Positions 830 to 48,004 of a stretch of 53,833 bases of DNA are shown here, in pieces (within the stretch, counting starts at the first letter, position 1; every line of letters begins with the position of its first letter). Origin of the DNA: Deltaproteobacteria bacterium. GTDB taxonomy: Bacteria; Desulfobacterota; Desulfuromonadia; Geobacterales; Pseudopelobacteraceae. Both the position numbers and the translations under genes were made by a program. The notes under the pieces were generated by a model. That model was not told where the DNA came from. It saw nothing but the letters and a program-made list of their open reading frames with translations, and did not search any database. The stretch is from contig JAJZRX010000013.1 in assembly GCA_021850095.1 (NCBI GenBank), positions 1-53,833 on the forward strand, read 5' to 3'.

Positions 830-2140
830 CTAGCTTTGTAACTGTGAAAAATAGCAGTAAATGTTGCGGCCGTTTTGCTTGGAGCTGTACATGGCGCTGT
901 CGGCTGCCTTCAGCAATGGCTCGGCTGAATCTGCGTCTTCCGGAAAGACACTGATGCCGATACTGACGCCAATGTGACACTCCTGCCCCTGGATGATAAA
1001 GGGTTTGTTCAGGGCGGCAATGATCTTGGCCGAGACAATGGCATTATCGGAGGGGTCCATAATTCTGGACAGAATCACGGCAAACTCGTCGCCCCCCATA
1101 CGGGCCACGGTATCGGCATTGCGCAGGCACTCCTGCAATCGTGTTGAAACCTCACTGAGCAGCGTGTCACCGGCATCATGACCCAGGGTATCGTTGACCT
1201 GTTTGAAACGGTCCAGATCCAGAAAGAGCAGTGAAAACTGTTCTTTATATCTTTTGCAGTGAGAAAGTATGCATGTCAGGCGATCAAAGAAGAGTCTACG
1301 GTTGGGAAGTCCGGTGAGTGCGTCAAAGTTGGCCAGATATTCCAGCCGCTCATGGGCAAGCCGGCGCTCACTGATATCACGGAATATGATCTGTACGGCA
1401 GGCTTGCCCTGATAGGTGAACGGAACACCTGACACTTCCACATCGACTTCACTGCCGTCCAGACAGATGAACTTCCCTTCTTTCCAGGGTGCGGTTGAAG
1501 CATTGCTCTCAATCATTTCCATCAGAGTCCTGAATACGTCACTGAATTCCGGATGAACAAAATCCAGCATTTTCCGTCCCAACAATTCTTCCGGAACGTG
1601 AGACTTCAAAAGCGCCGCTCCGGCAGGATTTATGAAAACCAGCCCGTCGCTCGCGTGGATGACGATACCATCCGGAGAAAGATCCACCAGCCGGCGATAA
1701 CGTTCCTCGCTCTGCATGATGGCGGTAAACATCTGCTCCCGCTCCTGAATCATGAGCCGTTTTTGCAGCGCCTTCTCGATAACGATCGGAAGGAGTTCAA
1801 GATAGCCCAGGTCCACATCTTTGACGATGTAATCGGTGGCGCCCAGCTTCATCGCCTCGACAGCGGTTATTTCATTCCCTTTTCCGGTCACCATGATTAC
1901 CGGAGGCGCATCCGCCTGGCCGGCCAGTGTCCTGATCACCTCAAGCCCCTCACAAACCGGCATATTGTGGTCGGTCAGCACCAGATCATAGGCGCCATCC
2001 GCCAGCATGTCCAGCCCCACCCTGCCATTCTCGGCCAGATCCACTGCATAGCCCTGCCTCCGCAGGCTTTTTTGCAGCAAACGGGCAAGCCCGGGATCAT
2101 CTTCCATGTACAATATGCGATATGAGCGCTCTTCAGCCAC
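830..2140 (-). CDS. Response regulator with PAS and GGDEF domains (diguanylate cyclase)
   Basis: This 436-residue cytoplasmic protein has three parts. Residues 1-125 are a receiver domain with acidic pocket EDD near residue 13 and phospho-acceptor D57 in LVLTDHNMP. Residues about 143-260 are a PAS sensor. Residues about 270-436 are a GGDEF domain. The active-site motif is intact (ARMGGDEFAVIL), and RNAD sits five residues upstream, the position of the RxxD product-inhibition site. The substrate-specificity positions read FKQVND and GHDAGD, the canonical N and D for c-di-GMP synthesis rather than the Ser-type Hypr variant that makes cGAMP. It should therefore make c-di-GMP when phosphorylated. 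No partner kinase is adjacent. Confidence 0.9.
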   Translation of the reverse strand: MAEERSYRILYMEDDPGLARLLQKSLRRQGYAVDLAENGRVGLDMLADGAYDLVLTDHNMPVCEGLEVIRTLAGQADAPPVIMVTGKGNEITAVEAMKLGATDYIVKDVDLGYLELLPIVIEKALQKRLMIQEREQMFTAIMQSEERYRRLVDLSPDGIVIHASDGLVFINPAGAALLKSHVPEELLGRKMLDFVHPEFSDVFRTLMEMIESNASTAPWKEGKFICLDGSEVDVEVSGVPFTYQGKPAVQIIFRDISERRLAHERLEYLANFDALTGLPNRRLFFDRLTCILSHCKRYKEQFSLLFLDLDRFKQVNDTLGHDAGDTLLSEVSTRLQECLRNADTVARMGGDEFAVILSRIMDPSDNAIVSAKIIAALNKPFIIQGQECHIGVSIGISVFPEDADSAEPLLKAADSAMYSSKQNGRNIYCYFSQLQS

Positions 2141-2194
2141 CGAAGCTCTCCTTCTCCACCGATTTATGTTTGGTAAGCGGACATCAAGTAACTA

Positions 2195-3286
2195 TCAGCT
2201 CCGCAAAGAACCGTCCCGGTAGAACGGCAGCTCGCAGACGACCGCTTCCATGCCGACCCGCTCGTGGCGAATCGTGAAGGGAGTTCCGATCACGGTCAGT
2301 TCGGGTTTGACGAAACCGATGCCGATGCCGCAGCCCAGCATGGGGGAGAAGACACCGCTGGTCACGCTGCCGACCGTTTCGCCGGCAAAGCAGATCTCGT
2401 AATGGTGGCGCGGTGAGCGACGGCTGGAAACCTGGAAAGCCACCTTTTTGCGCCTGATCCCCTGCTCTTTCTGGCTCAACAGGGCCTGCTTGCCGACAAA
2501 GATCTTGTCGAAATTGACAAAAGCCTCCAGGCCAGCCTCCAGTGGCGTGGTTGTCTCGTCGATATCGCTGCCATACAACGAATACCCGACCTCCAGGCGC
2601 AGCACATCCCGCGCACCCAGTCCGGCCGGTTTGACGCGCTGATCCTGCAGCAGCAGATCCCACAGCTGACAGACCTTTTCGACCGGGAGGAAGATCTCGT
2701 AGCCCAGTTCACCAGTATAGCCGGTCCGGCTGACGATCGCCTCCACCCCCAGGATATCCATGGTGATGAACTTGAAATAGGGAATTGAGGCGATCTTTTC
2801 GCCAAAAGCCGCCAGCATGACGTCGCGGGCCAGCGGTCCCTGCAGATCCAGCTTGCCGGTACGGTCGGTGATGTTGGTGAACGAGCCGCCCCGCAACCGG
2901 CTGTTGATAACGGCAAAATCATTGTCGGCCGTGGCGGCGTTGACCACCACCATGACCTTGTCCTCCGCCAGGCGGAAAACGATCAGGTCGTCGATGATGC
3001 CCCCCTGATCGTTCAGCAGAAATCCGTAACGCGAACGGCCGAGCGGGATCGTCGTGACCGAGAAGCTGAAGACATCCTCCAGCCCGCCCGCCTCGAAATC
3101 ACCCTGAAAGATGAATTCACCCATGTGGCAGATATCGAATAGCGCCGCCTTCTGCCGGCACCAGGCGTGCTCGGCGATGATGCCCTCGTACTGGATCGGC
3201 ATATCCCACCCCCCGAAGGGCGCTATCAGGGCTTTCAGATCACGGTGCCGGCTGTTGAGCGCAGTTGTCTTTGTTTGTTCATCCAT
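2195..3286 (-). CDS. gcvT: Glycine cleavage system T protein (aminomethyltransferase)
   Basis: The 363-residue product has the full GcvT length and signature stretches: FGGWDMPIQYEGI near the N-terminus, HMGEFIFQGDF, the LQGPLARDVM segment, and SRTGYTGELGYEIFLP in the folate-binding core. It moves the methylene group from the lipoyl-bound aminomethyl on H protein to tetrahydrofolate, releasing ammonia. Unusually, gcvH and gcvP are not adjacent; the only gcvH-like gene in this window is about 17 kb away in the aro/acc operon. The ATG at 3286 is the natural start, giving MDEQTKTTALNSRH. An exported protein of unknown function lies 21 bp upstream on the same strand, so the two may be co-transcribed. 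Confidence 0.93.
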   Translation of the reverse strand: MDEQTKTTALNSRHRDLKALIAPFGGWDMPIQYEGIIAEHAWCRQKAALFDICHMGEFIFQGDFEAGGLEDVFSFSVTTIPLGRSRYGFLLNDQGGIIDDLIVFRLAEDKVMVVVNAATADNDFAVINSRLRGGSFTNITDRTGKLDLQGPLARDVMLAAFGEKIASIPYFKFITMDILGVEAIVSRTGYTGELGYEIFLPVEKVCQLWDLLLQDQRVKPAGLGARDVLRLEVGYSLYGSDIDETTTPLEAGLEAFVNFDKIFVGKQALLSQKEQGIRRKKVAFQVSSRRSPRHHYEICFAGETVGSVTSGVFSPMLGCGIGIGFVKPELTVIGTPFTIRHERVGMEAVVCELPFYRDGSLRS

Positions 3287-3307
3287 GGCGGATTCCCCCG
3301 GTTTGAT

Positions 3308-3796
3308 TTAATGATGGTGCGGAGAAGAGCTGCGGATCTTTTTCGTACTGTGGCGGGATTTTTTTCCGGTTAGGCCGGCGATCGAAAGCACATCCGCCAG
3401 CTGCATCTTCCAGAGCCCCTCTTCATGGGTCAATTTGAATTCACGGGTGCTTGAATCGGAGGAGATCATGGTTCCCTCCAGCCCGACCGTCGCGTAGACG
3501 GTGGCCTCGCTCTGCTTTTCATGCAGAACCTTGAAGTTTTCCAGCTTCTGCCAGCAGCAGGCCGGCCGGACAGTGCTGTCAGCCATCTTATTGACAAAGG
3601 CTTCACGGGATGTTCTGCCGCGATGGGCCAGGCGATCGAAAAGCTGTTCATAGCGCCCCGCGCGCCACAGATCGAGCGTCTCCGACATGGATTGCTCCAG
3701 CACGGAAGCGGATTCAGCGGCAAAAGCAGAGAAGGCGGTCGCCAGGGTTAGAAACAGGACACTAACGATCAGGATCTTGAAACGGAGAGCCAGCAT
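3308..3796 (-). CDS. Exported protein of unknown function
   Basis: I chose the ATG at 3796 because GGAGGT lies six bases upstream; an upstream in-frame ATG at 3856 has no such site and would bury the signal peptide. The 162-residue product begins MLALRFKILIVSVLFLTLAT and has a likely signal-peptidase I site after FSAFA. The mature part contains ETLDLWRAGRYEQLFDRLA and a C-terminal EGLWKMQLADVLS stretch, a pattern seen in small NTF2-like or DUF4878-like periplasmic proteins, but I cannot place it firmly. It ends in a basic, His-rich tail. It may share a transcript with gcvT, which starts 21 bp downstream. Confidence 0.6.
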   Translation of the reverse strand: MLALRFKILIVSVLFLTLATAFSAFAAESASVLEQSMSETLDLWRAGRYEQLFDRLAHRGRTSREAFVNKMADSTVRPACCWQKLENFKVLHEKQSEATVYATVGLEGTMISSDSSTREFKLTHEEGLWKMQLADVLSIAGLTGKKSRHSTKKIRSSSPHHH

Positions 3797-3945: not shown

Positions 3946-5190
3946 ATGCTGCGCCAGGGAGACAAATTGCGGAGGATTATCGATCTGGGATTTGAAATAG
4001 CCCAGATCAAGGATATCGATCTGCTGCTGGAAAAAATCCTGAACGAGGCGCGCGCGTTCACCAACTGCGACGCCGGCTCAATTTACGTTCGGGAAGGGGA
4101 TGCGCTGAAATTCAGCTACGCCCAGAACGACACGCTGCAGAGGCAGCTGCCTCCCGGCAGAAGGCTGCCCTACTCCACCTTTTCAATACCCATCAGCAAA
4201 GATTCCATCGCGGGTTATGTGGCCTCAAAGGGCGCCATCCTGAATATTCCCGATGCCTACCAGCTCGACACCCGCTTCCCCTTTTCCTTCAACCGCTCCT
4301 ATGACGAGTTGACCGGCTACCGGACACGATCGATGCTGACCATCCCGCTGAAAAACTTTCGCGGAGAAATAATCGGGGTACTGCAGCTGATAAACGCGAT
4401 GGACGACAAGGGGAACGTGACCGCTTTCGTGCATGACGATGAAGAGCTGATCATCTACTTCTCGAACAACGCCGCCATTGCCATCGAACGGGCCAAGATG
4501 ACCAGGGAGATGATTCTGCGCATGAACAAAATGGCGGAATTGCGCGACCCGAAAGAGACCGGCCCCCACGTCAACCGGGTTGCGGCCTATTCGGTTGCCA
4601 TCTACGAAGCCTGGGCCGCTAACAAAGGGCTTTCACAAGCGGAGATTGACAAGAATCGCGATGTTCTGCGCATGGCGGCCATGCTGCACGATGTCGGCAA
4701 AGTGGCCATTTCCGATGCGATTTTGAAAAAGCCGGGGCATTTTACCGCCGACGAATACCAGATCATGAAGCTGCACACCCTGTATGGAGCCAATCTTTTT
4801 GCCGACATCTACTCCGACTTTGACGAATCGGCTGCGGTTGTGGCACTGACCCACCACGAGCGCTGGGACGGCGGCGGATACCCCGGCCAGATTGACACCC
4901 GTACCCAGCAACCCTTGCCGGGATACGAGAAAGAAGACGGAAAAGCGCAGGGCAAGCGTGGTGAGGAGATCCCGCTCTTCGGCAGGATCGTGGCGCTGGC
5001 GGACGTGTATGACGCCCTTTCCTGCCGGCGCTGCTACAAGGAAGCCTGGAGCGAGTGTCAGGTACTGGAAAACATCCGCTCGGAATCCGGCAAGCAGTTT
5101 GACCCTGAACTGGTAAAGGTATTCATGGACTGCATCGACAGCTTCCGACAGATAGAGCGGCTGTATCCGGATCAGGCGGAACAGGCGTGA
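3946..5190 (+). CDS. GAF domain / HD-GYP phosphodiesterase
   Basis: The start is the ATG at 3946, preceded by GGGGAGG; the TTG at 3928 is upstream of this ribosome site and is rejected. The 414-residue cytoplasmic protein has a GAF sensor domain at about residues 20-185 and an HD-GYP domain at about 195-395. The metal-binding motifs are intact: LHDVGK for the HD pair, downstream HTLYG and HHERW, and GGGYP for the GYP signature. HD-GYP enzymes hydrolyse c-di-GMP, and some act on 3',3'-cGAMP. The second possibility matters here because GEMM riboswitches of the cGAMP-like type lie nearby. No transmembrane segment is visible, so input is probably a small ligand or redox signal at GAF. Confidence 0.9.
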   Translation: MLRQGDKLRRIIDLGFEIAQIKDIDLLLEKILNEARAFTNCDAGSIYVREGDALKFSYAQNDTLQRQLPPGRRLPYSTFSIPISKDSIAGYVASKGAILNIPDAYQLDTRFPFSFNRSYDELTGYRTRSMLTIPLKNFRGEIIGVLQLINAMDDKGNVTAFVHDDEELIIYFSNNAAIAIERAKMTREMILRMNKMAELRDPKETGPHVNRVAAYSVAIYEAWAANKGLSQAEIDKNRDVLRMAAMLHDVGKVAISDAILKKPGHFTADEYQIMKLHTLYGANLFADIYSDFDESAAVVALTHHERWDGGGYPGQIDTRTQQPLPGYEKEDGKAQGKRGEEIPLFGRIVALADVYDALSCRRCYKEAWSECQVLENIRSESGKQFDPELVKVFMDCIDSFRQIERLYPDQAEQA

Positions 5191-5209
5191 TATCATCAGG
5201 TTGATAACG

Positions 5210-5246
5210 CGAAGGCGCAGAGAATTTGCAATTCCCTGCGCCTTCG
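5210..5246. terminator. Long hairpin between convergent genes (possible bidirectional terminator)
   Basis: An 11-bp perfect stem (5210-5220 with 5236-5246, CGAAGGCGCAG and its complement) is extended by an inner 5-bp stem (GAATT/AATTC) after one mismatch. It sits between the convergent HD-GYP and DAHP synthase genes. No clear T-run follows on either strand, so it may act as an mRNA 3'-end stabiliser or a weak terminator. Confidence 0.45.
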
Positions 5247-5278
5247 TGCGCTTCGCAAAAAGCTTGTTGACGACCAGA

Positions 5279-6298
5279 TCAGAGAGTTCTCTCCCCCGCC
5301 TCCGCAAACAGCTTTAATTTAGCCATCATCAGGTCGAATTTTTTGGGTTTCAGCGATTGGGCACCATCCGATGAAGCCTGTTCCGGGTTGGGATGGACTT
5401 CGACGATCAGGCCGTCGGCGCCTGCCGCCACGGCCGCATAGCACATCGGCGCCACATAATGGTGATCGCCGGTGCCGTGGGAGGGATCAATGACGACCGG
5501 CAGGTGGGTCTTGTGCTTCAGCACCGGAATGGCCGAAAGGTCGAGCGTGTTGCGGGTGGCGGTTTCAAAGGTGCGGATGCCGCGCTCGCAGAGGATGACC
5601 GCCTGGTTGCCCTCACTCATGATGTACTCGGCGCTCATCAGAAACTCCTGAATCGTCATCGCCATGCCGCGCTTCAGCAGCACCGGTTTTTTCAGCTGGC
5701 CGACCTTTTTCAGCAGGGCGAAGTTTTGCGAATTGCGGGCGCCGATTTGAAGGATATCGGCATATTCGGCCACCAGGTCGGCGGTCTCGGGATTGATGAC
5801 TTCGGTCACGAAGGGCAGTCCGGTCAGTTCGCGCGCTTTGGCCAGCAGCTTCAGCCCGTCTTCCTCAAGACCCTGGAAAGAGTACGGCGATGTGCGCGGT
5901 TTGAAGGCTCCGCCCCGCAGTACATGAGCCCCGGACTTTTTGACCGCCAGCGCGGATTCGATGATCTGCTGTTCGCTTTCCACCGAACAGGGGCCGGCCA
6001 TGACCACGATCTGCCTGCCGCCGATAACGACATCGTCACTGATCCGCACCAGACTGGACTCCTTCTTGACCTCTTTCGAGGCCAGTTTGTAAGGCTGCAG
6101 AATCGGCACGACATTCTCCACACCGTGCAGCGACTCCAGCGCCTGCAGAACCGCCTTGCCCCGTTCGTCACCGATGGCGCCGATCACATTCCGGGTCTCC
6201 CCGCGGATCACGTGCGGTTTGTAGCCCAGCTCCTTGATCCGCTTCAGCACCTCATCCTTGTCCTTTTTCGACGCATCTGTTTTCATGACAATAATCAT
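5279..6298 (-). CDS. aroF: 3-deoxy-7-phosphoheptulonate synthase (DAHP synthase, type I-beta with N-terminal regulatory domain)
   Basis: The enzyme condenses phosphoenolpyruvate and erythrose 4-phosphate, the first step of the shikimate pathway. The start is ATG 6298 ([14 protein letters not shown]), preceded by AGGAG; the longer open frame upstream runs through a terminator hairpin and is not coding. Of 339 residues, about 1-70 form a ferredoxin-like regulatory domain like that of Thermotoga-type enzymes. The TIM-barrel follows with [35 protein letters not shown] and VIDPSHGTG, all hallmark substrate and metal motifs. Transcription appears to be controlled by an aromatic leader peptide and attenuator (6375-6522). 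The other shikimate genes lie 17 kb away in the aroC-B-K block. Confidence 0.94.
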
Positions 6299-6374
6299 CC
6301 GCCTGCTCCTCTCCCACAAACAAGTAAGGCCGAAGGTTTCCTCCCCGGCCCTGGCTGTATAACGAATCAGACAG

Positions 6375-6458
6375 CAAAAAACCGGGGAGACTCGCGTCTG
6401 CCCCGGTTTGTGGTTTTGTGTGATAGCTTCCTCGCTTACACCGGTACCTGGGCAGACG
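6375..6458 (-). promoter_or_regulatory. Transcription attenuator of the DAHP synthase gene (terminator plus competing antiterminator)
   Basis: The terminator on the minus strand is a GC-rich stem (AACCGGGG, one bulged C, AGAC, loop GCGA, GTCT, CCCCGGTT) at about 6379-6408, followed by TTTTTT. The 5' arm segment GGGCAGACG (6395-6403) is also perfectly complementary over nine bases to CGTCTGCCC (6450-6458), which lies in codons 21-24 of the leader peptide. Ribosome stalling on aromatic codons would leave 6450-6458 free to pair and block the terminator. A ribosome reaching the leader stop at 6436 would cover it and allow termination. This is the classical attenuation logic of trp and phe operons. 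Confidence 0.8.
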
Positions 6459-6522
6459 GCCTGAAATAAAAGCCGAACCAAAAGTAAACGTTATAAGCGG
6501 TAAAGAAGCGGTTAGTGTTCAT
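6436..6522 (-). CDS. Aromatic-rich leader peptide of the DAHP synthase attenuator
   Basis: This 28-residue ORF ([12 protein letters not shown], then [16 protein letters not shown]) contains six Phe, three Tyr and one Trp, with seven of these ten within codons 13-20. Such density is not expected by chance and is typical of leader peptides that sense charged tRNA-Phe, tRNA-Tyr and tRNA-Trp. It lies directly upstream of a terminator whose 5' arm can pair with its own 3' codons. Its ATG lacks a good ribosome site, but a six-codon ORF (6519-6539, MLKCSP) with a strong GGGAGG site five bases upstream ends in an ATGA overlap with it. That arrangement suggests translational coupling. TTGACA hexamers occur at 6554-6559 and 6572-6577, but I could not assign the promoter firmly. 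Confidence 0.8.
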
Positions 6523-6593
6523 GGGCTGCACTTAAGCATAGAGACCTCCCGGTTGTCAAGCGACATTTCCCTGTCAATCCCTAAATAACCCGA

Positions 6594-12544: not shown

Positions 12545-14119
12545 TTAATGCTGCCTGAAACAATAGGGATCCCTTTCAGTAAACGGATCCAGCCCAAGAC
12601 TGGCGCTTACAGCCGGGCACCCCCGGCAGACGGAGTTCAGACGGCATCCGCTGCAGGCCGAACTTCCGGTACGATAGCGGACTGCAGCCTGGCTGGCGTA
12701 AATTGTCTCCAGGCTGTCGGCAAGTATGTTGCCGATCGGCGACGGAAACTTTCTGCAGGCATGTGCCTCACCGTCGGAAAGAATCGATATGAAATTAAAA
12801 GCCGCACCGCAGCCATAGCCGGCACATCCGCCAAACAGTCCGCTTTCATTACTTTCAAAAACAGTGTTGATCAGGCTGTCTTTGAGACTCAAAACCGGAT
12901 AATCCGCAAGAGCCCTGACATACATCTCAAGAAAAGCCCGGTACTCTCCCGGCGTCGGCAGTTCCAATGCAGCGCCTTCGCCGAAAAGAGCCAACCGGTT
13001 AAAGGTCAGCCCACCCGTGATATTTTCCAGTTCCGCCGCCAGCGGTACAATCTGATCCATATTCTTTCTGGTCAAGGTCAGCATAACCATGTTTGGCACG
13101 CCCATCTCGGTCAACATCCGCAGAAAAACGATTGTCCGCCGATAGTTGCCGACCCCGCGGATCTCGTCGTTATGCGACTCCAACCCCTCCAGGCTGACCT
13201 GGTAATACACCGGCATTTGAAGCGCAACGATCCGCTCGACCGTCTGACGATCAACCGCATTGCCCAGAATCGCAATCATGAAATCCCGCTCGGCAGCCGC
13301 ACGATAAAGCTCATAAAAGTGCGGATACATCAGCGGATTGCCGCCCGTCAGGGAAATTTGCCCGCGCACAAAGCGCTTCCGACAGAAGCTGCGCAGTTCA
13401 TCCATAATTTCAAGTGCACGTCCGAAAGGGAATTCACTGCGCTGGCTGCGATCATAACAATGCCTGCAGTGCAGGTCGCACTGTTGGGTCAGGTGCCACT
13501 GCAGGGTAAAAACCTCTGCTGCGGTATAGCGCTGGTCAGGCGCCAGATCGGCAACAGCCGCATCGCGGCGAAGCCGTGATACCGGGGAGATGAGCAGGCC
13601 TTTCGAGACCGCTTCCCGCATGACAGCATCGATTTTTCCAACCGGCACGGATGCTTGCCGGGCAGCAGTTTCCGGATCAATCTCTTCAGCAACCAGTTTG
13701 ATAGCCAGCAGATCGCCCGGTTCGGCGGTCTGTGTAAGAACTTCACCGGTTGACGGTTCCTGCCACACCAGGATAAATTCATTTCCAGGTTTGATCCGCT
13801 CCAGGTTGCGAGCCCTGGAACGCGTCAACAGTGACAGGATATTGATCCACTCAAGCGGGATAATCTGCAGGGTGGGATTAATGATGGTGGTTTCTGCAGC
13901 AGGGGGGATCACATCAGCGGTGTGAACCTGAAAAAGCGCCAGTTCCAGACGGGCGAGCCCGGAAAGAAACGGAAACCCTCCGAACTCGCCCTGTTCTTTT
14001 ACTAGTACCGGAAAATCGTCCGGCGACATGCCATCCCCAGCCACTGCCAAAATCCTCCGCCAGCCCTTTGGGCCAAGCAATGAACGGCACACTGGAAATA
14101 CATCCGATAATTTGCTCAT
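12545..14119 (-). CDS. Radical SAM/SPASM maturase of the selenobiotic-type peptide
   Basis: The 524-residue protein has an N-terminal extension of about 200 residues, whose part around 145-195 resembles a PqqD-like peptide-recognition winged helix. The radical SAM domain has the cluster motif CDLHCRHC near residue 215 and LTGGNPLMYP. The C-terminal SPASM region carries multiple Cys (FGGCAGYGCGAAF, ACRKFPSPIGNI, CSGCRLNSVCRGCPA). It lies 69 bp downstream of the UGA-containing precursor gene on the same strand. I recall this pairing as the computationally defined selenobiotic family found in Geobacter. By analogy to other SPASM maturases it should crosslink or otherwise modify the precursor, possibly at selenocysteine. 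The product is unknown. Confidence 0.87.
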   Translation of the reverse strand: MSKLSDVFPVCRSLLGPKGWRRILAVAGDGMSPDDFPVLVKEQGEFGGFPFLSGLARLELALFQVHTADVIPPAAETTIINPTLQIIPLEWINILSLLTRSRARNLERIKPGNEFILVWQEPSTGEVLTQTAEPGDLLAIKLVAEEIDPETAARQASVPVGKIDAVMREAVSKGLLISPVSRLRRDAAVADLAPDQRYTAAEVFTLQWHLTQQCDLHCRHCYDRSQRSEFPFGRALEIMDELRSFCRKRFVRGQISLTGGNPLMYPHFYELYRAAAERDFMIAILGNAVDRQTVERIVALQMPVYYQVSLEGLESHNDEIRGVGNYRRTIVFLRMLTEMGVPNMVMLTLTRKNMDQIVPLAAELENITGGLTFNRLALFGEGAALELPTPGEYRAFLEMYVRALADYPVLSLKDSLINTVFESNESGLFGGCAGYGCGAAFNFISILSDGEAHACRKFPSPIGNILADSLETIYASQAAVRYRTGSSACSGCRLNSVCRGCPAVSASLGLDPFTERDPYCFRQH

Positions 14120-14176
14120 GGCGCGATGACACCGAACATGGTTAAAGCCTTAATCCACCTTCCTGCAAAGATATGC

Positions 14177-14190
14177 AGCGCGACCGCGCT
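14177..14190 (-). other. Candidate SECIS-like hairpin after the second UGA
   Basis: Sixteen bases after the UGA at 14207-14209, the minus strand reads AGCGC-GGTC-GCGCT, a 5-bp stem with a GGUC loop. Bacterial SECIS loops often contain a GGU-type apex. The stem overlaps the TAG stop of the precursor gene and its 3' side, so it extends beyond the coding region. Confidence 0.5.
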
Positions 14191-14482
14191 ACTTGGATGA
14201 ACCGCCTCAACCGCTGCTGCCAGGTGCCTGTTTGGGTTTCTGACCTTCCTTGCCGACCGCATCCTTTGGAACCTTCTTGGACGTGACGCCCTTTTTGTCA
14301 GTTTTTACCGCTGACGATACTTTTTTGAACGTTCCAACCTTATCCTTGGGGGCGCTCCCGGCGCCCGACTTACCGCCTCAACCGCTTGCGGCTGCCAGAT
14401 CTGGCGCCGAGATGGTCGCACCGGCCACCAAACCGGCAATACCCATGCCAGCGACAAGGCTTTTTATCGTACTGTTTTCCAT
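14189..14482 (-). CDS. Selenocysteine-containing RiPP precursor (selenobiotic-type), two in-frame UGA codons
   Basis: Reading through UGA at codons 35 and 92 gives a 97-residue peptide from ATG 14482 (AGGTGGTGA ribosome site) to TAG 14189. The N-terminus (MENSTIKSLVAGMGIAG...) is hydrophobic. The middle is Lys-rich (VGTFKKVSSAVKTDKKGV). Both UGAs sit in the same context, SG-Sec-GG (AASG-U-GGKSG and GSSG-U-GGSSK). Each UGA is followed by a stable hairpin. The next gene downstream is the radical SAM/SPASM maturase. A pseudogene is unlikely, because identical motifs surround both UGAs and the frame is otherwise clean. Function is unknown; the family is thought to yield a modified selenopeptide. 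Confidence 0.88.
14350..14366 (-). other. SECIS-like hairpin after the first UGA
   Basis: After the UGA at 14378-14380 there are exactly 11 bases, then a 17-base hairpin GGGCGC-CGGGA-GCGCCC with six perfect G-C pairs and a purine-rich loop. The E. coli fdhF SECIS upper hairpin has the same 11-base spacing and 17-base length. This supports recoding by SelB rather than termination. Confidence 0.75.
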
Positions 14483-14527
14483 GCTATCACCACCTTTCCA
14501 ATGTGGACTCAACAACTTGGTAAATTC

Positions 14528-14555
14528 ATTCTACCGATAAATTCTCGCTTATCAA
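14528..14555 (-). promoter_or_regulatory. Probable sigma-70 promoter of the selenopeptide operon
   Basis: On the minus strand, TTGATA (14550-14555) and TAGAAT (14528-14533) are 16 bp apart. The start would be near 14521, about 40 bp upstream of the precursor ATG. Confidence 0.55.
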
Positions 14556-14598
14556 TCTTAAAATACAATAACCAAGCTATTTTTTTGACCGGCAAAAT

Positions 14599-14619
14599 GA
14601 TTATGGATGAGTCATAATC
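14599..14619. repeat. Inverted repeat in the divergent selenopeptide/PxxKW intergenic region
   Basis: GATTATG and CATAATC form a perfect 7-bp inverted repeat with a 7-base spacer. It lies between the divergent promoters and is a possible operator for a dimeric regulator. Confidence 0.4.
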
Positions 14620-14657
14620 CGACAATCAAACAGTCCGGTTTACCGACAACTTTTCCG

Positions 14658-14686
14658 TTGACATTTCTCGGCAAGAATTGATAAGG
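14658..14686 (+). promoter_or_regulatory. Candidate promoter of the PxxKW gene
   Basis: A consensus TTGACA (14658-14663) is followed after 17 bp by ATAAGG, a weak -10. A strong AGGAGG ribosome site precedes the ATG at 14725. Confidence 0.4.
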
Positions 14687-14724
14687 TTATTTTTCATTCA
14701 AGAACAAATTCAGGAGGAAGAAGC

Positions 14725-15024
14725 ATGCAGTGTCAGACAGTACTTCCAGGTACCGAGTGTACCTTTTGGGGAAAACAGGGCTGTATTTTTACCGGCGGTT
14801 CATGCCAGACTATCGAAGAAAACTGCGAAGGGTGTGACCGGGTAGTAACAGGCTCGATCGGTCAGGTATGCAGCGCATACCCGGCTCCATCAAAAAAATG
14901 GGTCGGCGGCATCTGCAATTTTGCTTCGCATGTCAAAGTTGAAATCAAGGTTGACGATACAAAAGTCAACCCGCTCAAAGCTTCCAAAAAAGCTTCCGGC
15001 GGTGCGGCCAAGAAGAAGAAATAG
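14725..15024 (+). CDS. PxxKW-family cysteine-rich protein
   Basis: The 99-residue protein has eight Cys (residues 3, 12, 20, 27, 34, 37, 49, 64) in its first two thirds, the PSKKW motif at 55-59 that names the family, and a Lys-rich tail (VNPLKASKK...AAKKKK). No signal peptide is visible, so it is probably cytoplasmic. The Cys pattern suggests metal or Fe-S binding, but no function is established that I know of. It is divergent from the selenopeptide gene across a 242-bp shared regulatory region, and both proteins have Lys-rich C-terminal halves. A strong ribosome site (AGGAGGA) and dedicated terminator point to high expression as a single gene. Confidence 0.8.
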   Translation: MQCQTVLPGTECTFWGKQGCIFTGGSCQTIEENCEGCDRVVTGSIGQVCSAYPAPSKKWVGGICNFASHVKVEIKVDDTKVNPLKASKKASGGAAKKKK

Positions 15025-47651: not shown

Positions 47652-48004
47652 TGGTGGAGGCGGCGGGAATCGAACCCGCGTCCGAAAAATCTAGCATCTG
47701 AGACCCTACACCGTTAGTTCGTTGCTCAATTTAACCGTCTGCCTGCGCAGCGAACAAGGCAGTCAAACGGCGGTCCCGTAAATTTCGGGCCGCGCTACGG
47801 GCGTTGCGCTTCCCTATCCGATAGTGAGTGACGCCCCCTTTTTACCATCGGCATCTCAATCGGGGACGCCTGTTAAGCAGCTAGTGCAACAGGGGTGTTA
47901 TAATTGTCGGCAATTAATGCCGTGCAGGTTTATTAAGGTCGGCCGCCTGCCCCGACCCGGTGCTCCCCAGATTTTCAATTCCCCGTCGAAACCTTTACGC
48001 CCCC
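47652..48004 (-). ncRNA. ssrA: Transfer-messenger RNA (tmRNA)
   Basis: The 353-nt RNA runs from GGGGGCG at 48004 to the CCA at 47652-47654. The acceptor ends pair over seven bases (GGGGGCG with CGCCTCC, one G-U). The T-arm reads GCGGGTTCGATTCCCGC. The messenger part (tag codons 47876-47911, stop TAA 47873-47875) encodes ADNYNTPVALAA, with the AA end recognised by ClpXP-type proteases. Together with SmpB it rescues ribosomes stalled on broken mRNA. It lies 43 bp downstream of smpB on the same strand. Confidence 0.96.

Follow-up and report, generated by a model that had tools for sequence, protein, structure and literature searches.

A hidden sbtA gene with two in-frame UGA codons, its SbtM maturase, and a proposed link to thiooxazole peptide systems

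The sbtA-sbtM locus

In this work, we focus on a short gene, sbtA, and on the gene of its maturase, sbtM, which lie side by side in a stretch of 53,833 nucleotides from a member of the Geobacterales (contig JAJZRX010000013.1 of assembly GCA_021850095.1), the whole of which we call the window. An earlier sequence-only reading had proposed that a clean frame runs here from a ribosome site and an ATG to a TAG, broken only by a UGA at each of codons 35 and 92, each time in an SG-Sec-GG context (Sec, selenocysteine), and that it encodes a selenobiotic precursor paired with a radical S-adenosylmethionine (SAM)/SPASM maturase. The frame is confirmed, and it can now be placed on the minus strand, no strand having been given: it runs from 14482 to 14189 over 97 codons, with the ATG at 14482-14480 and the TAG at 14191-14189, and the only in-frame stops inside it are the two UGA codons, each within SG-UGA-GG. 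On the plus strand, the translation across 14189..14482 is unlike the SbtA family. The unit exceeds the limits first given to it, as the second of two hairpins ends at 14175 and the maturase gene runs from 14119 to 12545 on the minus strand (Table 1).

The proposed pairing is also supported, both partners scoring above curated cut-offs. The N-terminus of SbtA matches NCBIfam TIGR04081, a 27-residue model that spans just the charged start and the hydrophobic stretch of the precursor, with 35.9 bits for a cut-off of 30.5 (37 bits in the genome search), while SbtM matches TIGR04082 with 717 bits for a cut-off of 350. The next best NCBIfam match of SbtM, the radical SAM enzyme of the ACGX system (TIGR04340), was rejected at 159.4 bits, below its cut-off of 400, and a PHROGs search gave generic radical SAM families only. 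With a precursor bearing S/G-U/C-G/S cores adjoining its maturase, the window locus is a member of the SbtA/SbtM thio(seleno)oxazole family of ribosomally synthesised and post-translationally modified peptides (RiPPs). It resembles the known system in the cut-offs passed, the adjacent genes and the Sec cores, and nothing essential differs; the window precursor has two cores, and its relatives have one to several. The gene sbtA is thus genuine, although hidden; its product is a selenium-containing peptide, and its partner is a modifying enzyme of a known family. Such Sec-containing RiPPs had been proposed by bioinformatics (PMC4979651). The structure of the product, which the sequence-only reading called unknown, has since been addressed: SbtM is reported to act in vitro on both Cys and Sec substrates with the loss of four hydrogens, and nuclear magnetic resonance identified the Cys product as a thiooxazole (PMC11002830).

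Upstream of sbtA, a TTGA...GTAnAAT-like pair aligns 5' of the Geobacter-type sbtA genes, and the TTGATA/TAGAAT pair of the window resembles it. An Rfam search of positions 13900-14700 gave nothing but an isrK match, which lies on the opposite strand and is due to chance.

Table 1. Features of the sbtA-sbtM unit in the window
Feature	Positions	Strand	Basis
Promoter-like element: TTGATA (14555-14550), 16-nt spacer, TAGAAT (14533-14528)	14528..14555	-	Consensus match only
Ribosome-binding site AAGGTGGTG	14488..14496	-	Sequence; similar in close relatives
sbtA precursor, 97 codons, two Sec codons	14189..14482	-	TIGR04081 match, relatives, dN/dS
sbtA leader, residues 1-27, hydrophobic, signal-peptide-like	14402..14482	-	TIGR04081 match; export role inferred
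UGA codon 35 (Sec), core SGUGG	14378..14380	-	Frame; same alignment column in 8/8 aligned relatives
SECIS-like hairpin 1, GGGCGC-CGGGA-GCGCCC, 11-nt spacer after UGA; also codes GAGSAP stretch	14350..14366	-	Folding, covariation
UGA codon 92 (Sec), core SGUGG	14207..14209	-	Frame; alignment of relatives
SECIS-like hairpin 2, GTAGCGC-GGTC-GCGCTGC, includes TAG stop codon	14175..14192	-	Folding, covariation
sbtM, radical SAM/SPASM maturase, 524 aa	12545..14119	-	TIGR04082; model pLDDT 91.5
SbtM residues 1-181, module homologous to MNIO partner protein (DUF2063 helical part + RRE)	13577..14119	-	Family profile and fold
SbtM CxxxCxxC, residues 214-221, radical SAM [4Fe-4S] motif	13457..13480	-	Invariant in 9/9 and 41/41 aligned rows, which exclude L074 and L109, loci having no such motif
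SbtM SPASM domain, residues 437-501	12617..12811	-	Pfam PF13186

Reading of the two UGA codons

Sec is almost certainly inserted at both UGA codons of sbtA, each directed by its own selenocysteine insertion sequence (SECIS)-like hairpin, and several independent tests point this way. The machinery on which the earlier proposal depended is present in the genome (selA, selB, selD and tRNA-Sec, the last also called by ARAGORN), and SelB would deliver the Sec-tRNA at the two UGAs via the two hairpins, a step strongly supported by the sequence. The selD match of this genome (L135, G000:C82:1411-2337) itself holds one in-frame TGA, and SelD is here probably a selenoprotein too. Each UGA falls in the same alignment column in all nine genes compared, that of the window and those of 8 of 8 aligned Geobacter-type relatives. 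For these nine, the dN/dS ratio is 0.20 up to the first UGA, 0.14 from there to the second and 0.12 beyond it, values that are rough since pS reaches 0.69, near saturation. Selection acts on the sbtA frame past each UGA.

The wider family was surveyed from a search of the genome collection for SbtM relatives, which gave 320 stretches; the best 80 were kept and, with three more (one the window, one a duplicate), make up 83 loci and 85 precursors, both totals being two too high because of two duplicate pairs (L036/L070, same contig; L107/L113, same assembly and precursor). Between one and six UGA cores per locus are found across the 68 loci that have any. Homologous loci keep either UGA or Cys at the same cores and not ordinary stops, and the exchange is also seen between neighbouring paralogues. 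The Sec or Cys state changes three times on a tree of the window and 70 of the 79 loci offered to it (motif filter; 65 rows labelled), a count that is for this reason an underestimate. The precursor type also follows the Sec machinery: among 79 genomes (50 and 29 in two batches, L113 left out), Sec-type precursors occur in 60 with selA and 4 without, Cys-only precursors in 2 with and 6 without, and in 7 genomes no precursor was found (Fisher p 3.4e-5 for the four Sec/Cys by selA cells, the genomes not being independent). Two of the four Sec-type exceptions, L043 and L051, probably correspond to genomes listed as 66% complete. In L083, L108, L116 and others, the precursors finish with ...SG-UGA-x-UGA; a single gene would then use one UGA, the first, for Sec and the other as its true stop.

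The hairpins were compared family-wide with the Cys sites, the denominators being distinct flanks. A stem of at least 5 bp with its loop starting at 16-26 nt follows 160 of 183 UGA cores vs 18 of 78 Cys sites, and 166 of the 171 loops of such stems, taken at any offset after UGA, contain GG or GT. Of the 78 Cys sites, 21 lie at residue 32 or before and are mostly of the lipobox type; when these are dropped and slightly wider offsets are allowed, stems of at least 5 bp are found at 168/183 UGA cores vs 21/57 Cys sites, and stems of at least 6 bp at 145/183 vs 8/57, while shuffled flanks yield 6-bp stems in a mean of 14.4 of 183. The folding energy lies below that of synonymously recoded flanks at the UGA sites (z -1.14, 187 sites), but not at the Cys sites (z -0.07, 79 sites). 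In two covariation classes, which cover 110 of the 183 UGA sites, 259 of 300 cells (50 sites) and 341 of 360 cells (60 sites) are paired, with many two-sided changes; pairing falls to a mean of 75% and 78% when columns are shuffled, and to at most 52% when one arm is slid. For the sbtA of the window, structure, covariation and the Cys-site control thus all argue that the two hairpins are SECIS elements.

The hairpin also leaves its mark on the protein. A G-A-G/V-S-like stretch comes after 104 of 131 internal UGA cores but after none of the 69 internal Cys sites, and it is therefore best taken for the footprint that the hairpin leaves in the coding sequence, and not for a part of the product. 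In the 46 cases where a TAA or TAG stop lies at most 8 codons from a Sec codon, it is TAG 37 times and TAA 9 times (TGA stops are not countable there). The UGA cores without a hairpin include tandem cores and several Nitrospirota precursors. In four loci (L052, from Trichlorobacter thiogenes, L054, L056 and L059), tandem cores SGUGxSGUGG stand only 15 nt apart, and the first UGA may share the hairpin of the second; the same four loci carry a second, Cys-only precursor directly 5' of the Sec precursor, with cores such as SGCGG and no SECIS footprint.

The maturase, its N-terminal module and the joint loss of precursor and catalytic motif

The first 180 residues or so of SbtM are, as family profiles and predicted fold show, homologous to the partner protein of the multinuclear non-heme iron-dependent oxidative (MNIO) enzymes, which is made of a DUF2063 helical part and a RiPP recognition element (RRE). 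The matches to the DUF2063/RRE partner families stay below the family cut-offs, and the module is fused and not a separate protein (10 of 14 loci entered the partner alignment, A4; L141, L146, L148 and L149 were omitted). A Foldseek search with the model of this N-terminus lists TglHI chains at E 2.9e-4 and 3.1e-4 among its matches, and NgoC is absent among the best 50 matches listed both for this model and for the whole SbtM; a second structure comparison places NgoC at rank 1 for the N-terminus and at rank 47 for the whole model. A profile search of the sequences of solved structures with the SbtM N-terminus gave no relevant match, the best being a formin at 0.49. The known radical SAM/SPASM maturases SuiB, SkfB and CteB, which make other products by their entry titles, differ in that none reaches SbtM residues 1-72 among the alignments listed. 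SbtM thus looks like a fusion of an MNIO-partner recognition module with a radical SAM engine. In the omitted L146, a B12-binding radical SAM enzyme (1492-3441, minus strand) has a C-terminal PqqD-like (RRE) part that matches the HvfC model, and L148 also matches this model within a long frame; these are perhaps other pairings of RRE-type modules with radical SAM enzymes.

As for the division of labour within SbtM, the N-terminal module is likely to hold the precursor by binding the SbtA leader, and the radical SAM/SPASM part would in all likelihood remove four hydrogens per core and close a seleno- or thio-oxazole, as in the published in vitro work on a relative.

The distribution of the two partners provides a check of their pairing. 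An SbtA-type precursor is present in 76 of the 83 surveyed loci; of the other seven, L050, L073 and L088 break off upstream of the match, within about 225 bases of it, L074 and L109 have a degenerate SbtM, and L120 and L122 show no evident cause. In the order, SbtM is found at E 1e-60 or better in 24 of 141 genomes, and SbtA is matched as well, at E 0.01 or better, in 22 of these 24; in 19 its score exceeds the cut-off. In G127 and G134, whose contigs carry L109 and L074, the SbtM frame is open but lacks CxxxCxxC, and the upstream DNA holds no precursor. These genomes are sisters on long branches of the tree, and the loss of precursor and catalytic motif was therefore probably a single event. 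Their SbtM homologues, at about 5000-6550, retain the SPASM cysteines and would be repurposed or decaying enzymes. Against a strict pairing stand G126, which has an SbtA above the cut-off and no SbtM detected (a short contig, in a genome 85% complete), and three genomes with weak SbtA matches below the cut-off.

Among open reading frames (ORFs) of at least 70 aa in the 80 loci and the window stretch, we found no third conserved gene, peptidase, exporter or redox gene beside sbtA-sbtM: SbtM is found in 79 sources and the next family in 13, SbtA having been found separately. In the window, a PxxKW family cysteine-rich protein (DUF6811; 14725-15024, plus strand) is divergent from sbtA, and its ORF family recurs only in three close relatives (L043, L044 and L045). 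Farther away lies a tmRNA gene (47652-48004, minus strand) with the tag ADNYNTPVALAA.

Probable export and possible role of the product

The N-terminus of the precursors suggests a destination. A lipobox of the PROSITE type is found in 31 of the 85 precursors vs a mean of 10.6 and a maximum of 18 in shuffles; a looser form is present in 9 others, such as that of L117 (Desulfosarcina alkanivorans), and residue 29 is Cys in 36 of 85. At least 10 changes of this state are counted on a quick tree with 71 rows. The SbtA of the window lacks a lipobox; a signal peptidase I site might lie in its LAAASG region, but the site test was not above shuffles, and therefore we do not claim periplasmic release for the product of the window. 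We considered that Cys 29 could be a modification core instead of a lipobox residue, and rejected it: the residue at -3 is L, I, V, M or F at only 3 of 187 UGA cores, and it is mostly hydrophobic at Cys 29. One precursor, that of L119, has at residue 29 a UGA without clear hairpin where close relatives have a lipobox-like Cys; this may be a Sec at the lipobox or a sequence error. On balance, the hydrophobic N-terminus would most likely direct the modified polypeptide out of the cytoplasm: many relatives would export it in lipoprotein form, and here it may be a periplasmic protein.

This is where the comparison with the bufferins and captophorins becomes useful. These are made by MNIO enzymes with a DUF2063 partner, PME1 (BufBC, HvfBC, FonBC, NgoBC), whose recognition module has a homologue fused into SbtM. 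A thiooxazole is reported for both systems, and both have repeated cores of the Cys-Gly type and a signal-like N-terminus; SbtA/SbtM differs in using a radical SAM/SPASM engine instead of MNIO, needing no O2 in principle, in using selenium for sulfur, and in having one fused enzyme. An O2-activating MNIO suits aerobes, and a radical SAM engine suits anaerobes. No MNIO enzyme (PF05114) was found at E 0.001 in any of the 141 genomes of the order, that of the window included, so the system of the window is not a bufferin or captophorin, although it may by analogy function in a similar way. The MNIO enzymes put 5-thiooxazoles on the exported, copper-binding bufferins and captophorins, and oxygen activation is described for them (PMC13419390). 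Bufferins carry Sec (secretion) signal peptides and sequester periplasmic copper by means of Cys-derived thiooxazoles, and some 16% of the Buf2 are predicted to be lipoproteins (PMC12452194). Cu(I) binding is described for bulbicupramide (PMC12538549), and lipidated MNIO RiPPs have been demonstrated (PMC12636315). The RiPP-lipoprotein hybrids of MNIO clusters (DybA, NedA; PMC12636315) share with SbtA a lipobox-type signal on a modified precursor, but in the SbtA family it is found only in part, not in the window's own member, and the maturase is a radical SAM enzyme. From this likeness to the copper-binding bufferins and to the lipidated MNIO RiPPs, SbtA is proposed to be a soft-metal ligand: exported, it could present several Se/S heterocycles as an oxygen-independent counterpart of bufferins and captophorins, a step we put forward tentatively. 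Taken as a whole, this chain of Sec insertion, recognition module, ring, export and metal ligand is our preferred explanation, and we hold it as rather probable.

Other explanations have to be weighed against it. SbtA could be the precursor of a diffusible selenium natural product, an antibiotic or a signal, whose leader is removed and whose cores are released and secreted, as the annotation of the family as a RiPP natural product precursor and the repeated cores would have it; we regard this as unlikely, since neither a peptidase nor an exporter is conserved beside the genes, the linkers between cores are variable, and the lipobox of many relatives speaks for an anchored polypeptide. We give even less credit to the view that SbtA, once exported, serves in redox reactions or electron transfer, or stores selenium, its heterocycles not being metal ligands in the main. 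Many record titles among the SbtM relatives do name Geobacter relatives and sulfate-reducer groups, which are anaerobic respirers, and Sec is otherwise a redox residue; yet the neighbourhood shows no link to redox genes, and Cys-only homologues exist, 6 of 8 in genomes without selA, so selenium cannot be the whole purpose of SbtA. It is very improbable that the likeness of the SbtM N-terminus to the MNIO partner reflects the common RRE fold without special kinship, even if RREs are widespread in RiPP enzymes and the RRE domains of other such enzymes also match SbtM residues 76-180. That the UGAs are ordinary stops, leaving a 34-residue peptide and a decayed or untranslated remainder, is a negligible prospect: standard gene calling ends there, and the ORF list has no entry of at least 80 aa on the minus strand at sbtA, but in 8 relatives, as in the window gene, the frame is preserved beyond both UGAs and selection acts on it there, UGA swaps with Cys in paralogues and homologues, hairpins are far commoner after UGA than after Cys, and the Sec machinery is present.

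The open PMC literature, as far as our search covered it and with most subscription journals lying outside, yielded no statement on the function of the selenobiotic SbtA, no description of SbtA as a lipoprotein and no mention of the link between SbtM and DUF2063, which is apparently unreported. The window locus is one more member of a family described before. What this work contributes is the SECIS evidence with its Cys control, the loss of the precursor together with the catalytic motif, and the finding that SbtM and the copper-peptide systems have a recognition module in common. This connects a selenium RiPP with the widespread copper-buffering thiooxazole peptides, systems treated separately in the literature that we could consult. 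By analogy, SbtA/SbtM could be a branch of the thiooxazole metallophore systems that works without oxygen and with selenium, providing anaerobes with envelope-exported and often lipid-anchored soft-metal binders, a possibility that we advance with caution. If the module reflects common ancestry, two unrelated chemistries, that of O2-using iron enzymes and that of O2-independent radical SAM enzymes, would make the same type of ring on the same type of substrate, and the question of the role of the selenobiotics becomes directly testable, through metal binding and localisation in the envelope.
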